Source of the DNA: Spongiactinospora gelatinilytica
GTDB lineage: Bacteria > Actinomycetota > Actinomycetes > Streptosporangiales > Streptosporangiaceae
Direction of reading: 5' to 3'
Assembly: GCF_003236385.1 (NCBI RefSeq)
Contig: NZ_POUA01000009.1
Location: forward strand, 1-51,330
DNA length: 51,330 nt
In this document: piece by piece, positions 4,148 through 48,934 of the stretch
Numbering within the stretch: position 1 is the first letter of the stretch
How the letters are laid out: the number at the start of each line of letters is the position of its first letter
Position numbers and translations under genes: made by a program
Notes under the pieces: generated by a model
Told to the model about the DNA's origin: nothing
What the model saw: the letters and a program-made list of their open reading frames with translations, nothing else
The model's database searches: none

Positions 4148-6367
4148 TCAGCGGCGCTCTGGCTCGGAGGCGAGAGATGTGACCGTCGCCGGCGAATCGG
4201 GCGCCCCCGGGGGCGCCACCTCCACCCGTGCCGAGCCGATGTCGAAGTAGAGCCCCATCAGTTTCAGCGTGCCGGCCTGGACCTGCTCGTTGACCGCCGG
4301 GTACGTCCTCAGGTTCGCCAACTGCTGTTGGATGTTGAGCCGGCAGAGCCGGTCCAGCTTGGTGTCCGGGTCATCCCCGTCGGCGCCGCCCTCCAGCAGG
4401 GCCAGGCTGGAGTCGCCGTGCCGGAGCCAGCGGCCCAGGTGCCGCAGGTGGGCCGTGGTGGCGGGGCCGTCGAGCAGGGCCGCCATCGCGCCGCAGCCGG
4501 AGTGTCCGCAGACGGTGATGGTGTGCACGTTCAAGATGCCGGTGGCGAACTCGATGGCGGAGGCGATCGAGTCGTCGCACGGGTCGGAGTCGGCGCGCGG
4601 CACCAGGTTGCCGATGTTGCGGACGGTGAACAGGTCTCCCGGTCCGCTGGAGGTGATCAAATGGGGCACGATGCGGGAGTCGGCGCAGGTGATGAACAGG
4701 TGGGCGGGCTGCTGTCCGGCGGCCAGCTCGGTGAAGACGGGCCGTACCAGCGGCGCGGTACGGCGGTGGAACTCCTGCGTCCCCTGGGTGAGCCGGCACT
4801 CACTTTCGGTCATGGCCGGCTCGGCCCGGCGGCGGTGGGCCCAGGGCAGCCACCAGCGTCCGGCCGGCTTCGGCGGGCTTTTGGCAGGGGACATCCGCGC
4901 GCCGCCCGCCGCCATCGTGTACCACTGGTCGTGGACCTCGTCGATGGCGACCGTGCCGCCCAGGCGTTCGTGGTCCAGCCGCCAGGAGTGGACGGCCTCG
5001 AAGGCGGCGTTGTCCATGAAGTCGATGTTCAGGTCGAGGTCGACGGCGGTGCCGGTGGGGATCGCCCGCAGTTCCTGGGTCAGGTGCGGCACACCGAGAA
5101 AGGTGAGCGAGCCGGAGACGGTGACGTGCAGGCGCCCGTCCGGTTCCTCGCGCTTGTCGATGGTGACCCGCGTCAGCCGCCGCAGCGCCAGCAGCGCGGC
5201 CAGGGCGAGCCCGGCCAGGACTCCCTCGGCGAGGCCGATCACGATCACTCCTGTCATGGTGACCAGGTAGACCGGCACCTCGTTGTGACCGTGCACCTTC
5301 CTGGCATTGCCGAGGCTGATGGTCCTGATGCCGATGAAGACCAGCAGGGCGGCCAGCGCCTCGATCGGGATCAGCTTGATCGTCCCGCCCAGGCACAGCG
5401 CGAAGATCAGCACCCACACGCCGTGCAGGATGGCCGAGGAGCGGCTGCGGGCGCCGGCCCGGATGTTGGTGGTACTGCGGACGATCACTCCGGCCACCGG
5501 GAGCCCGCCCAGGGCGCCGCTGACCATGTTCGCCACACCCTGCCCGCACAGCTCACGGTCCAGGTCGGCGCGGCGGCCGTTGTGCATGCCGTCGGTGGCC
5601 GTGCAGCACAGCAGCGATTCGGCCCCGGCCAGCAGCGCGATCAGCAGCGCCGCCCCGGCGACATGGTGCCAGTCGCCCTGGGGCACCTGCGGCGGCGCCC
5701 AGGTGGCGATGGCCCCCGACAGGTCGATGCGGGTGACGTCCCAGTTCAGCAACCAGGCCGTGGTGGCGGCCACGGACAGCGCCGCCAGCGGCGCCGGGAC
5801 GGCGCTGATCCTTTTGGGCAGCCGCTCCCAGACCAGCAGTACCAAGACCGTGAGCACGCCCACCATGACCTTGTGGCCGTGCATGCCGATGATCTGGCCG
5901 GGCAACTGAATCAGGTTCGCCAGGGCCGAGTGCTGGGGACTGCCGCCGAGTACCACATGGAGCTGGGCGAGGGCGATGACGATGCCGACCCCGGCCAGCA
6001 TGCCGTGCGCGACCGCGGGTGAGACCGCCAGCGCGGCCCGCGCCGCCTTGAGCAGGCCGAGCAGCACCTGTATGGCGCCGGCCAGGATGGTGATCAGGCA
6101 GGTGGCCTGCCAGCCGTAGGTGTGCACCAGGCCGGCGATCACCACGGTCAGGCTGGCGGTCGGCCCGCTGACCTGGATCGGGGAACCGCCCAGCCGGCCC
6201 GCGACGATGCCGCCCGCGGCGGCGGCGATCAACCCGGCGGCGAGCGGCGCCCCGGCCGCCATGGCGATGCCCAGCGACAGGGGCACCGCGACCAGGAAGA
6301 CGACCAGCGACGCAGGCAGATCATACCTGAATGCACTCAACAGACTACCCTGTGTGACCATTTTCAT
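4148..6367 (-). CDS. SulP-family anion transporter fused to beta-carbonic anhydrase
   Basis: About 739 residues from ATG 6367 (AGGGTGG upstream), 782 if a far-upstream start is used. Residues about 10-400 are a SulP/SLC26 transporter with many membrane segments, including 'DLPASLVVFLVAVPLSLGIA' and 'NMVSGALGGLPVAGVIVRST'. A STAS-like domain follows, about 410-520. The C-terminal ~200 residues are a beta-class carbonic anhydrase with zinc ligands in 'ITCADSRIVP' and 'CGHSGCGAM'. The layout matches known actinobacterial SulP-CA fusions such as M. tuberculosis Rv3273. Coupling suggests bicarbonate transport with on-site CO2/HCO3- conversion at the membrane; the transported ion is inferred. Confidence 0.92.
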   Translation of the reverse strand: MKMVTQGSLLSAFRYDLPASLVVFLVAVPLSLGIAMAAGAPLAAGLIAAAAGGIVAGRLGGSPIQVSGPTASLTVVIAGLVHTYGWQATCLITILAGAIQVLLGLLKAARAALAVSPAVAHGMLAGVGIVIALAQLHVVLGGSPQHSALANLIQLPGQIIGMHGHKVMVGVLTVLVLLVWERLPKRISAVPAPLAALSVAATTAWLLNWDVTRIDLSGAIATWAPPQVPQGDWHHVAGAALLIALLAGAESLLCCTATDGMHNGRRADLDRELCGQGVANMVSGALGGLPVAGVIVRSTTNIRAGARSRSSAILHGVWVLIFALCLGGTIKLIPIEALAALLVFIGIRTISLGNARKVHGHNEVPVYLVTMTGVIVIGLAEGVLAGLALAALLALRRLTRVTIDKREEPDGRLHVTVSGSLTFLGVPHLTQELRAIPTGTAVDLDLNIDFMDNAAFEAVHSWRLDHERLGGTVAIDEVHDQWYTMAAGGARMSPAKSPPKPAGRWWLPWAHRRRAEPAMTESECRLTQGTQEFHRRTAPLVRPVFTELAAGQQPAHLFITCADSRIVPHLITSSGPGDLFTVRNIGNLVPRADSDPCDDSIASAIEFATGILNVHTITVCGHSGCGAMAALLDGPATTAHLRHLGRWLRHGDSSLALLEGGADGDDPDTKLDRLCRLNIQQQLANLRTYPAVNEQVQAGTLKLMGLYFDIGSARVEVAPPGAPDSPATVTSLASEPERR

Positions 6368-46234: not shown

Positions 46235-46265
46235 TTGACCTTGACGCGACGTCAACGTCTTAACT
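46235..46265 (+). promoter_or_regulatory. MerR-type promoter with operator in a 19-bp spacer
   Basis: TTGACC (46235-46240) and TTAACT (46260-46265) are separated by 19 nt, the unusually long spacer that MerR-family activators act on by DNA twisting. Inside it lies the palindrome TTGACG-cga-CGTCAA (46241-46255). Transcription starting about 7 nt after the -10 would begin at or next to ATG 46272, so the mRNA may be leaderless; no Shine-Dalgarno sequence is seen. Confidence 0.75.
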
Positions 46266-46271
46266 GACAGC

Positions 46272-48350
46272 ATGCGGATCGGAGAACTCGCCGCACTGCT
46301 CGGGGTGTCCACCCGGACGGTGCGCCATTACCACCATCAGGGCGTCCTGCCAGAACCACCCCGCCGGGCCAACGGCTACCGGGAGTACGGCCTGCGCGAC
46401 GCGGTCGCGCTGGCCCGCGTCCGCCGCCTCGTGGAGCTGGGCCTGAGCCTGCCCGAGGCGCGTGACGTCATCGCCGACGACCAGGCCAGGGACCTGCCGG
46501 AGATCCTGCGGGAGATCGACGCCGACCTGGCCGGGCAGGAGCGCGACATCAGGGAGCGCCGCGCCCGGCTGGCCGTACTGCTGCGGCAGGCGGAGGAGGG
46601 GCTGGCGCCGGACGGCACCACCTCCCCCGAACTGCTCGCGCTGCTGCACGAGATCAAGGCCCCGGCGTCGAAGTCGGCGGACTGGGACCGCGACCTGCTG
46701 GTACTGGTGGACGCCATGGCCAAGCCGGGCGACCAGGAGGGCGTCGGCGCGATGTTCACCGCCCTGGCCGCCGACCCGCGGCTGGGGGCGCACGGTCATG
46801 AGTTCTACCGGCGCCTGGACGAGCTGGCCGAGGCCGGGCCGGACGACCCCAGGGTCGCCCCGCTGGCGGGTGCGCTGGCACGGTACATCGGCGAGCACAT
46901 GCCGCTGGAGGACGCGCGGGCGACCGGCGAGTGGGACACGGGTGCGGTCGAGCCGTTTCTCGACGACCTCTCCCCCGCGCAGGCGGAGGTCGTGCGCCGC
47001 ACCGTCGCGCTGCTCGCCACCGGACCGGCCGGTGACACCGAACGACCCGACCCAGGGACCAACACCGGACGACCCGGGCACGCGCACGAGGCCGGGCAAC
47101 CCGGGCGGACCGATGACACCGAACGGCCCGGTTCGGCGGGCGACGCCGGGCGGTCCGGGGCGGCGGGCTGCCCGGTGCTGCCGTTCGGGCGGCCGGACCC
47201 GCTGCTGCCGCCGCCGGACTACGCGCGGCTGCGCGCGGACGCCTCGGTGACCCGTGTGCTCGCCCCGGACGGCCGCCCGGCCTGGCTGGTCACCTCCTAC
47301 GACGCCGTGGGGACGGTCCTGGCCGATGACCGTTTCGGGCTCGCGCCGCCCGGCGTGCCCGATACCGGCGGCGACACGCTCTTCCAGGACGGCCCGGCGC
47401 ACCTGCGGCTGCGCCGCCTGGTGTCCAAGGCGTTCAGCCCGCGCGCGCTGGCCGGGCTGCGGCCCCGGGCCGAGGAGGTGGCCGCCGAGCGGGTCGCGGC
47501 GCTGGCCGCGGCCGGGCCGCCCGCCGACCTGGCCGCGGACCTGGCCGCCCCACTGTCCATCACCATGATCGGCGAGGTGCTGGGGATCGCGATCGGCGAG
47601 CGTGACCGCTTCCAAAGGCTGGCCGACGCCGCCGCCTCGGTGGACTTCCTGTTCGCCGGCGAGGACGACGACGCGCAGCAGGCGATGGCCGCCGCGGCCC
47701 GCGCCTGGGGGGCGCTCGGCGGGTACGCCGCCGAGCTGATCGCCGCCAAGCGCGAACGGCCGGGCGATGACCTGCTCAGCTCCTTGATCGTGGTACGCGA
47801 CGGCGATGACGGGCGCCTGTCCGACAGCGAGCTCATCGCCATGGTCACCACTCTCGTCGGGGCCGGGTACATGTCGGCGCGCAACGCCATAACCACGGGC
47901 GTCCTGCGGCTGCTGTGCGACGGGGATCGGCCGCTCACCGCCGTGGCCGCCGCCGGGCGGGTGGACGACACGGTCGAAGAACTGCTGCGCCTGCAGTCCG
48001 GGCGGACCGGCGAGCCCTTCCCCCGGTACGCCCACGCCGACGTGGACCTGGCCGGTGTCACGATCGGCGCGGGCGATCTCGTCCTGATACGGCTGGAGGC
48101 GGCCAACCGCGACCCGGCGCGCTTTGCCGCACCCGACCGCTTCGAGCCCGGCCGCAGGTCGTCGCTGGCGTTCGGGCACGGCCCGCACTACTGCCTGGGC
48201 GCGCCGCTGGCCCGCGTGGAGATCGCCGCCGCCCTGACCGCGCTGGCCGAGGGCCTGCCGGGACTGCGGCTCGCCGTACCGCCGGAGCGGATCGAGTGGG
48301 CCGGCAACGCCACCGACGCCGGCCCCGCGCGACTGCCCGTCATCTGGTGA
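46272..48350 (+). CDS. MerR-family regulator fused to cytochrome P450
   Basis: 692 residues in one uninterrupted frame. Residues 1-70 are a MerR winged helix ('MRIGELAALLGVSTRTVRHY'), and 70-250 are a helical region as in full-length actinomycete MerR proteins. Residues about 253-298 are a Pro/Gly linker of roughly five 9-residue repeats. Residues about 300-692 are a complete P450: the E570-L-L-R573 helix K motif, 'PDRFEPGR', and the heme loop 'FGHGPHYCLGAP' with Cys641. The I-helix reads A531-G-Y-M534-S535; the usual acidic residue and Thr are Met and Ser, which suggests weak or absent monooxygenase activity. I infer a heme-based or ligand-binding sensor controlling its own promoter. A simple two-gene fusion with retained catalysis is the alternative. 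Confidence 0.9.
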   Translation: MRIGELAALLGVSTRTVRHYHHQGVLPEPPRRANGYREYGLRDAVALARVRRLVELGLSLPEARDVIADDQARDLPEILREIDADLAGQERDIRERRARLAVLLRQAEEGLAPDGTTSPELLALLHEIKAPASKSADWDRDLLVLVDAMAKPGDQEGVGAMFTALAADPRLGAHGHEFYRRLDELAEAGPDDPRVAPLAGALARYIGEHMPLEDARATGEWDTGAVEPFLDDLSPAQAEVVRRTVALLATGPAGDTERPDPGTNTGRPGHAHEAGQPGRTDDTERPGSAGDAGRSGAAGCPVLPFGRPDPLLPPPDYARLRADASVTRVLAPDGRPAWLVTSYDAVGTVLADDRFGLAPPGVPDTGGDTLFQDGPAHLRLRRLVSKAFSPRALAGLRPRAEEVAAERVAALAAAGPPADLAADLAAPLSITMIGEVLGIAIGERDRFQRLADAAASVDFLFAGEDDDAQQAMAAAARAWGALGGYAAELIAAKRERPGDDLLSSLIVVRDGDDGRLSDSELIAMVTTLVGAGYMSARNAITTGVLRLLCDGDRPLTAVAAAGRVDDTVEELLRLQSGRTGEPFPRYAHADVDLAGVTIGAGDLVLIRLEAANRDPARFAAPDRFEPGRRSSLAFGHGPHYCLGAPLARVEIAAALTALAEGLPGLRLAVPPERIEWAGNATDAGPARLPVIW
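47028..47165 (+). repeat. 27-bp degenerate repeats encoding the MerR-P450 linker
   Basis: About five imperfect 27-bp units encode nonapeptides ending in variants of T-E-R-P-G, T-G-R-P-G, A-G-Q-P-G and A-G-R-S-G. The repeats maintain frame and look like slippage-expanded interdomain linker sequence. Confidence 0.6.
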
Positions 48351-48424: not shown

Positions 48425-48934
48425 ATGAGCGAACAGGCGGCCGACGGGCCTACGGACGCGATCGACCTGATTCTCCACCAATGGGCGCGGGAGCGCCCGG
48501 ACCTGGACCTTTCGCCCATGGCACTGCTCGGCCGCCTGCGGATACTCACCAGGGCGATGGAACGCGAGCTGGACGAGGTCTTCGACCGGCACGGTCTCGG
48601 GCAGGCCGACTTCGACGTGCTCGCCACGCTGCGGCGGAGCGGCCCGCCGTACGCGCTGATCCCCTCGGAGCTGTCGGCGGCGCTGATGATGTCACGGGCG
48701 GGCATGACCGGCCGGCTGGACCGCCTGGAGCGCGCCGGACTGGTCGAACGCAGCCTCGACCCGGGCGACCGGCGCAGCTTTCGCGTGACGCCGACCCCGA
48801 CAGGCCTCGGCCGCATCGACACCGTGCTCACCGAGCACGCCGCCGCGCTGCGGCGCCTGGTCAGCGGCCTTTCCCCGGAGGACTTCGCCACCCTGACCCG
48901 GATCCTGCGGACCATGCTGGCGGCCATCACCTGA
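48425..48934 (+). CDS. MarR-family regulator
   Basis: 169 residues. Winged helix with 'GLGQADFDVLATLRRSGPPY', recognition helix 'LSAALMMSRAGMTGRLDRLE' and wing 'LVERSLDPGDRRSFRVTPTP'. It starts at ATG 48425 and its own promoter holds a clear MarR operator, so it is autoregulated. Its target may include the upstream MerR-P450 gene, 74 bp away, or the downstream penicillin-binding protein, 217 bp away, by proximity only. Confidence 0.93.
   Translation: MSEQAADGPTDAIDLILHQWARERPDLDLSPMALLGRLRILTRAMERELDEVFDRHGLGQADFDVLATLRRSGPPYALIPSELSAALMMSRAGMTGRLDRLERAGLVERSLDPGDRRSFRVTPTPTGLGRIDTVLTEHAAALRRLVSGLSPEDFATLTRILRTMLAAIT

Follow-up and report, generated by a model that had tools for sequence, protein, structure and literature searches.

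Self-sufficient P450s (CYP102, CYP116B) are naturally fused to reductases, and trigger enzymes such as PutA carry an enzyme and a DNA-binding regulator in one protein. We analysed a stretch of 51,330 nucleotides from Spongiactinospora gelatinilytica (hereafter the window), in which a MerR regulator is fused to a cytochrome P450. Unlike in CYP102 and CYP116B, the partner of this P450 is a transcription factor; its domains are unrelated to those of PutA, and a coupling of catalysis to regulation in the window protein is hypothetical. The nearest one-gene parallel is TipA, a MerR-type regulator (TipAL/TipAS). PMC7762955 describes a MerR head and a C-terminal effector in one autoregulated gene, as in the window, and a C-terminal drug-binding part that can be made alone from the regulator gene. 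The window protein differs from TipA in having a full P450 after the effector region, and the TipAS effector domain is absent from its Pfam matches. With the activators CueR, CadR, BmrR and EcmrR it has in common the winged helix, the dimer helix and a dyad in a 19-bp spacer; unlike them, it has a P450 tail, and its effector region is without an assigned fold. On the P450 side, the nearest solved relatives are MycG, PikC, LnmA and pentalenolactone synthase, with 33-41% identity among the 50 Foldseek rows listed. In contrast to these biosynthetic P450s, the window P450 is without the I-helix acid, is fused to a regulator and falls below the curated NCBIfam cut-offs. A search of the open-licence literature (titles and abstract openings among the matches listed) did not find the MerR-P450 architecture described, and to that extent the earlier statement, in a preliminary description of this DNA, that no characterised regulator has this layout was upheld.

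The open reading frame at 46272-48350 (+) encodes 692 aa from an ATG start and is free of internal stops. The MerR-P450 fusion frame is real. Residues 1-68 match Pfam MerR_1 (E 1.6e-16), with Pfam MerR also above its cut-off, and the Pfam p450 match (E 7.9e-20) is split over two stretches, the best of which covers residues 565-658. The MerR half aligns over residues 1-251 with stand-alone orthologs. The P450 half aligns over residues 303-692 with MycG (2y46), its best solved relative by phmmer (E 1.1e-68). These alignments, along with the Pfam matches, bear out the preliminary description of one 692-residue frame holding a full MerR and a full P450. In structure searches, the closest folds to the MerR part were CueR and other MerR proteins, and the best Foldseek match of the P450 half was LnmA (4z5p, E 4.6e-26, TM-score 0.89 by target length). 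The AlphaFold model of the fusion (mean pLDDT 74.8) places the domains in the order MerR head, long helix (75-108), helices to ~250, low-confidence linker (253-297) and P450; the long dimerisation helix after the head spans 75-108 or 75-109 in the two predicted models. The features of the locus are as follows:

46235..46265, + strand: MerR-type promoter/operator (from the sequence)
46272..46595, + strand: MerR winged-helix head and long dimerisation helix, residues 1-108 (Pfam MerR_1/MerR; AlphaFold helix)
46596..47030, + strand: MerR helical effector region, about residues 109-253 (stand-alone orthologs; models)
47031..47171, + strand: linker of low pLDDT, about residues 254-300 (AlphaFold, comparison of fusions)
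47172..48347, + strand: cytochrome P450, residues about 301-692 (Pfam p450, phmmer, Foldseek)
47871..47876, + strand: Met534-Ser535, the I-helix acid and alcohol positions, in AGYMSARN (alignment)
48192..48194, + strand: heme-ligand Cys641, in FGHGPHYCLGAPLAR (alignment)
48425..48934, + strand: MarR-family gene, the downstream neighbour (Pfam MarR_2, 3.3e-14)

The MerR effector region (~109-253) was without a Pfam match. Its helices lie at 119-250 in the models, with pLDDT <50 at about 125-160, and it is present at full length in the stand-alone MerR orthologs. When MerR residues 1-253 were searched against 150 family genomes, 3 of the 54 matches listed (E <= 3.8e-45) were fused to a P450, namely those of the window genome, Spongiactinospora rosea (G001) and Planotetraspora thailandica (G078); fusion status was judged at 30 loci by a search for the P450 and at 24 by open-frame length, the longest frame listed for these 24 being 401 aa. 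The orthologous MerRs appear to be mostly stand-alone.

Upstream of the fusion we observed a -35 box TTGACC (46235-46240), a 15-bp dyad TTGACGCGACGTCAA (46241-46255) and a -10 box TTAACT (46260-46265), with a spacer of 19 nt. The self-operator of the MerR can be written as TTGACC-TTGACGnnnCGTCAACG, the dyad lying within the 19-nt spacer, its centre 8 bp beyond the -35 box. PMC5045206 gives 7-8 bp for this distance in the MerR subfamilies it treats, and PMC8113463 describes how MerR proteins activate promoters whose spacers are 19-20 bp long, by bending and under-twisting them. The geometry of the window promoter fits this spacer mechanism, and with its dyad in a 19-20 bp spacer the segment at 46235-46265 can be classed as a putative MerR-family operator. 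Nowhere else in the window is the 23-base element matched with <=3 mismatches (mean expectation 0.01). Of the 33 upstream regions of MerR orthologs, 30 contain it (<=3 mismatches), placed 36-38 nt ahead of the ATG. A leaderless transcript would be expected, since the -10 box ends six bases before the ATG at 46272. Three of the 33 regions (L019, L021 and L022) are without the self-operator; their genomes (G140, G005 and G121) still have the operator at the membrane-protein gene described below.

The P450 half was used to scan genome contigs, which gave 46 loci, of which 34 (L054-L085, L097, L098) showed an identity of ~50% or higher. We observed that the operator (0-2 mismatches) precedes stand-alone P450 genes in 12 of these 34 family loci, where it sits 37-79 nt before the equivalent of residue 296. 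In a shuffle control of the P450 upstream regions, the best of 200 shuffles had 5-6 mismatches. Where the P450 is fused to or adjoins merR, no second operator was found just before the P450 (best 8-9 mismatches, coding strand). The unfused P450 is a predicted target of this MerR or its close relatives. Since the self-operator of the MerR also precedes stand-alone P450s of the family, the fusion would join a regulator to its own predicted target. MerRs that are ~50% identical have the same operator before their own genes (L158, L163, L171, L175). In four genomes with operator-bearing P450s (G319, G295, G323 and G322) only MerRs of 47-59% identity were found at E <= 1e-55, and the MerR that acts there may be such a relative.

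Across the 51 operator loci classified, the next gene was the membrane protein in 17, merR in 14, P450 in 12, DUF2268 in 2 and another gene in 6; this tally is biased to the best-matching sites, includes 19 genomes that were chosen for having a P450, and leaves out 29 of the 59 sites of the 19-genome scan. Three loci were dropped from it: L104 (the same palindrome reread), L105 (no true site) and L115 (a wrong-strand reading of a merR site). A reversed-pattern control gave 0 sites in 1, 9 and 19 genomes. In the window genome, the pattern (<=2 mismatches) was found at merR, at G000:C577:24340 (L101, 1 mismatch), which precedes an unclassified membrane-protein gene, and at two 2-mismatch sites without these genes. 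The membrane-protein gene also lies behind the operator in 8 of the 9 relatives searched, the exception being G078. These occurrences of the MerR self-operator before stand-alone P450s and the membrane-protein gene appear to be new, and the papers listed for the operator string in the open-licence literature were unrelated. They predict a small MerR regulon in this family, comprising merR, p450 and the membrane protein.

The membrane protein (~200-300 aa) was the commonest product encoded behind the operator among the classified loci, and a Pfam scan of it gave no match. Two of the six loci with other genes (L154 and L161) resemble the membrane-protein gene by eye. At L122 and L123 a gene for DUF2268 (a predicted Zn-protease) has a close operator variant, CTGCGTCAACT, which recurs at unclassified sites in further genomes of the 19-genome scan.

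We consider it rather probable that the window protein is an autoregulated, ligand-responsive MerR fused to a tethered P450 oxygenase of its own predicted regulon. A MerR dimer would bind its own promoter at the dyad within the 19-bp spacer, and a small molecule bound in the helical effector region would lead to activation of its own gene. In relatives without the fusion, one type of operator stands before merR, a separate p450 and the unclassified membrane-protein gene. The merR and p450 genes would have become neighbours, with ATGA or GTGA overlaps, and a frame change or stop loss would then have given one polypeptide. The fused P450 would most likely still be an oxygenase acting on the inducer or a related compound, and the fusion protein would still switch the membrane-protein gene in trans. 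One autoregulated gene could then combine sensing, induction and chemical removal, because the fused P450 would still oxidise the inducer or a relative of it. The sequences themselves show that four species have the fusion, that the operator is shared, that the two genes can overlap at the junction and that both halves are under purifying selection; from these we infer the binding of the MerR to the operator, the ligand, the catalysis and the gain from tethering. The locus would offer a ready system for asking whether induction changes when an enzyme is tethered to its regulator.

The preliminary description had proposed a search for other MerR-P450 architectures, and in-frame fusions were indeed found in S. 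rosea (L044/L054), P. thailandica (L045/L056) and Nonomuraea jiangxiensis (L066), the last by the contig scan with the P450 half. Among the 34 P450-family loci, 3 were fused, and in 2 (L055 and L061) an unfused orthologous merR lay immediately upstream; the other 29 had neither arrangement. Besides the 12 operator-bearing loci, another 12 had a divergent ~200-aa ORF belonging to one cluster (TetR by Pfam for L064, the others by clustering), and 5 (L074, L078, L079, L097, L098) had none of these contexts. In the genus of G140 (54 genomes, E <= 1e-85) the fusion was present in one genome (G307) and adjacent genes in two (G290 and G312). The fusion is rare there, and therefore would be dispensable for the circuit.

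The junctions suggest how the two genes were joined. The merR stop overlaps the p450 start as ATGA in N. aridisoli (L055), and the p450 start of this species, ATG ACG ACC ACG, stays in frame inside the fusion of P. thailandica; the two species are sisters in the MerR tree (99/95) and in the P450 tree (100/99). In G312 the overlap is GTGA. The P450 beside merR in G312 (L137, near 2470 of the locus) has ~57 residues gone in frame, the heme Cys included; either the operon has retained a P450-like protein without heme, or the gene is broken. The two trees conflict over G312, whose P450 joins N. jiangxiensis (96/86) and whose MerR joins the stand-alone L022 (100/99).

Groups were defined by architecture, and their monophyly was examined by AU tests carried out once the trees were known. 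It was rejected for the fused MerRs (four sequences, p 1.4e-5), for the fused P450s (four sequences, p 0.003) and for the six linked MerRs (the four fused, L055 and L137; p 2.8e-6). The MerR tree was made from a chosen set of 37 rows, and 15 of the 57 rows were dropped for the P450 tree (duplicates, one contig-cut row and five distant own paralogs). These tests rejected a single origin for the fused forms. As the fused forms are not one clade, a repeated origin of the fusion is suggested, and the simplest reading would be three or more fusion events; fewer fusions plus later splits could also yield the non-monophyly. A regulator was probably joined to one of its own predicted targets more than once. 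Living relatives still display the steps, from separate genes sharing an operator to a four-base overlap and then to fusion.

The same junctions also bear on a neutral read-through, in which a stop was lost in a merR-p450 operon and the halves stayed independent, perhaps in part made as two polypeptides via an internal start or cleavage. It would account for the old P450 ATG retained in frame in P. thailandica, with a purine-rich stretch before it, and for the unfused overlaps of N. aridisoli and G312. An in-frame GTG (Val302) at the start of the window P450 part is consistent with it as well, as is the example of TipA, for which PMC7762955 describes alternative starts that give two products from a single gene. 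However, the junctions of the window and N. jiangxiensis are without an in-frame ATG. Moreover, the fused state has been kept in the window species and S. rosea, between which the MerR part has a dN/dS of 0.26, the P450 part one of 0.30 and the MarR neighbour one of 0.33, indicating purifying selection on both halves. The evidence for repeated origin argues against a neutral event too, and we regard this explanation as unlikely, though deserving of attention.

The proposal of a tethered oxygenase requires a closer look at the P450 half. Its heme Cys641, the E570/R573 pair of the ExxR motif and the C-helix residues H377/R381 are all present, and the I-helix reads AGYMSARN, with Met at the acid position and Ser at the alcohol position; the usual acid-alcohol pair is absent. 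The intact heme Cys and ExxR, and the Met534/Ser535 pair, had been correctly located before. The acid-alcohol pair is usual in P450s but not universal; P450s can work with other residues there, as CYP51 does with His. We aligned 50 P450-family rows (40 distinct by the last 250 residues), leaving out L098 and the distant loci L086-L096 and L099. The acid position was Leu in 38, Gln in 5, Met in 2, Val in 2, Ile in 2 and Ser in 1, with Asp or Glu in 0 of the 50, which defines a P450 group without this acid; the alcohol position was Ser in 31 and Thr in 19. E570, H377 and R381 were kept in 50/50 rows, R573 in 49/50 (L081 has Asp) and the heme Cys in 48/50, one of the two rows without it (L085) being cut by a contig end. 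Seven P450 paralogs from the genome of the window species were also compared; Asp/Glu-Thr occurs in five of them and His in two. The alignment indicates that the acid-less I-helix is a trait of this P450 family, independent of the fusion. No NCBIfam model matched the P450 half at its curated cut-off; for the P450-derived glycosyltransferase activators (TIGR04515) it scored 123 bits, below the cut-off of 343.

The preliminary description had taken the altered I-helix to fit a P450 turned into a sensor, and had asked whether Met/Ser is conserved in the fusions. Its true MerR-P450 fusion stood, and the I-helix as the mark of a sensor was not supported: the acid is lost in fused and unfused members alike, and the rows are mostly stand-alone P450s. 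Since the change is common to both, it is uninformative alone on a sensor role; as the sign of a fusion-specific sensor, Met/Ser was ruled out. None of the four fusions has the canonical acid/Thr pair, so that the sensor idea is only weakened by these observations.

A sensor of this kind, no longer an oxygenase, would pass a signal from the heme and a ligand or gas to the MerR head. Many MerR proteins have C-terminal sensor domains, the acid at position 534 is lost, and the P450 of G312 is an operon partner even without the heme-Cys stretch. Against this, the acid-less motif is common to stand-alone relatives, Ser or Thr is retained in 50/50 rows, and P450 genes elsewhere bear the MerR operator. 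The fusions retain the entire MerR effector region, and because it was kept whole, the P450 is no replacement for a sensor and is less likely to act as one. The linker varies from ~47 aa in the window and ~190 in S. rosea to ~8 in P. thailandica and almost none in N. jiangxiensis, which makes allosteric coupling awkward. We find the sensor doubtful for these reasons. We hold in similarly low regard a mixed form, in which the heme state, substrate or product of the P450 would alter DNA binding by the MerR head, so that the P450 both reports on and removes the inducer. The ~190-aa linker of S. rosea (L044 8442-9020) contains imperfect 54/108-bp repeats.

We consider it very improbable that the P450 half is dead and decaying. 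The acid position is altered and the heme region is lost in one relative, but the other hallmarks tested are retained and the dN/dS of this half is similar to that of the MarR neighbour. That two genes were joined through an error of assembly or sequencing, for which one could point to a draft genome of 957 contigs, is scarcely credible, and a frameshift artefact or a stop between the halves, raised earlier as a concern, was ruled out because the records of S. rosea, P. thailandica and N. jiangxiensis also have in-frame fusions; the dN/dS of both halves agrees with this.

The neighbouring genes examined give no clue to the P450 substrate. The order plsC, merR-p450, marR and, further down, PBP is common to the window and S. 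rosea. In G002, of the same genus, the order is plsC-merR-PBP, with no P450 or marR match between, and marR may have been gained or lost together with the P450 half.

Around the unfused P450s, other regulators were seen. In Thermoactinospora rubra (L057) a different MerR-family gene (4441-4824, 127 aa) lies just upstream of an operator-bearing P450. The loci with the divergent ~200-aa ORF (L064, L069, L071, L073, L075-L077 and L081-L085) are without the MerR operator. There appears to have been a regulator swap around one P450 enzyme. L064, L069 and L074 have a common upstream near-palindrome, ATTGCA..GCATT.
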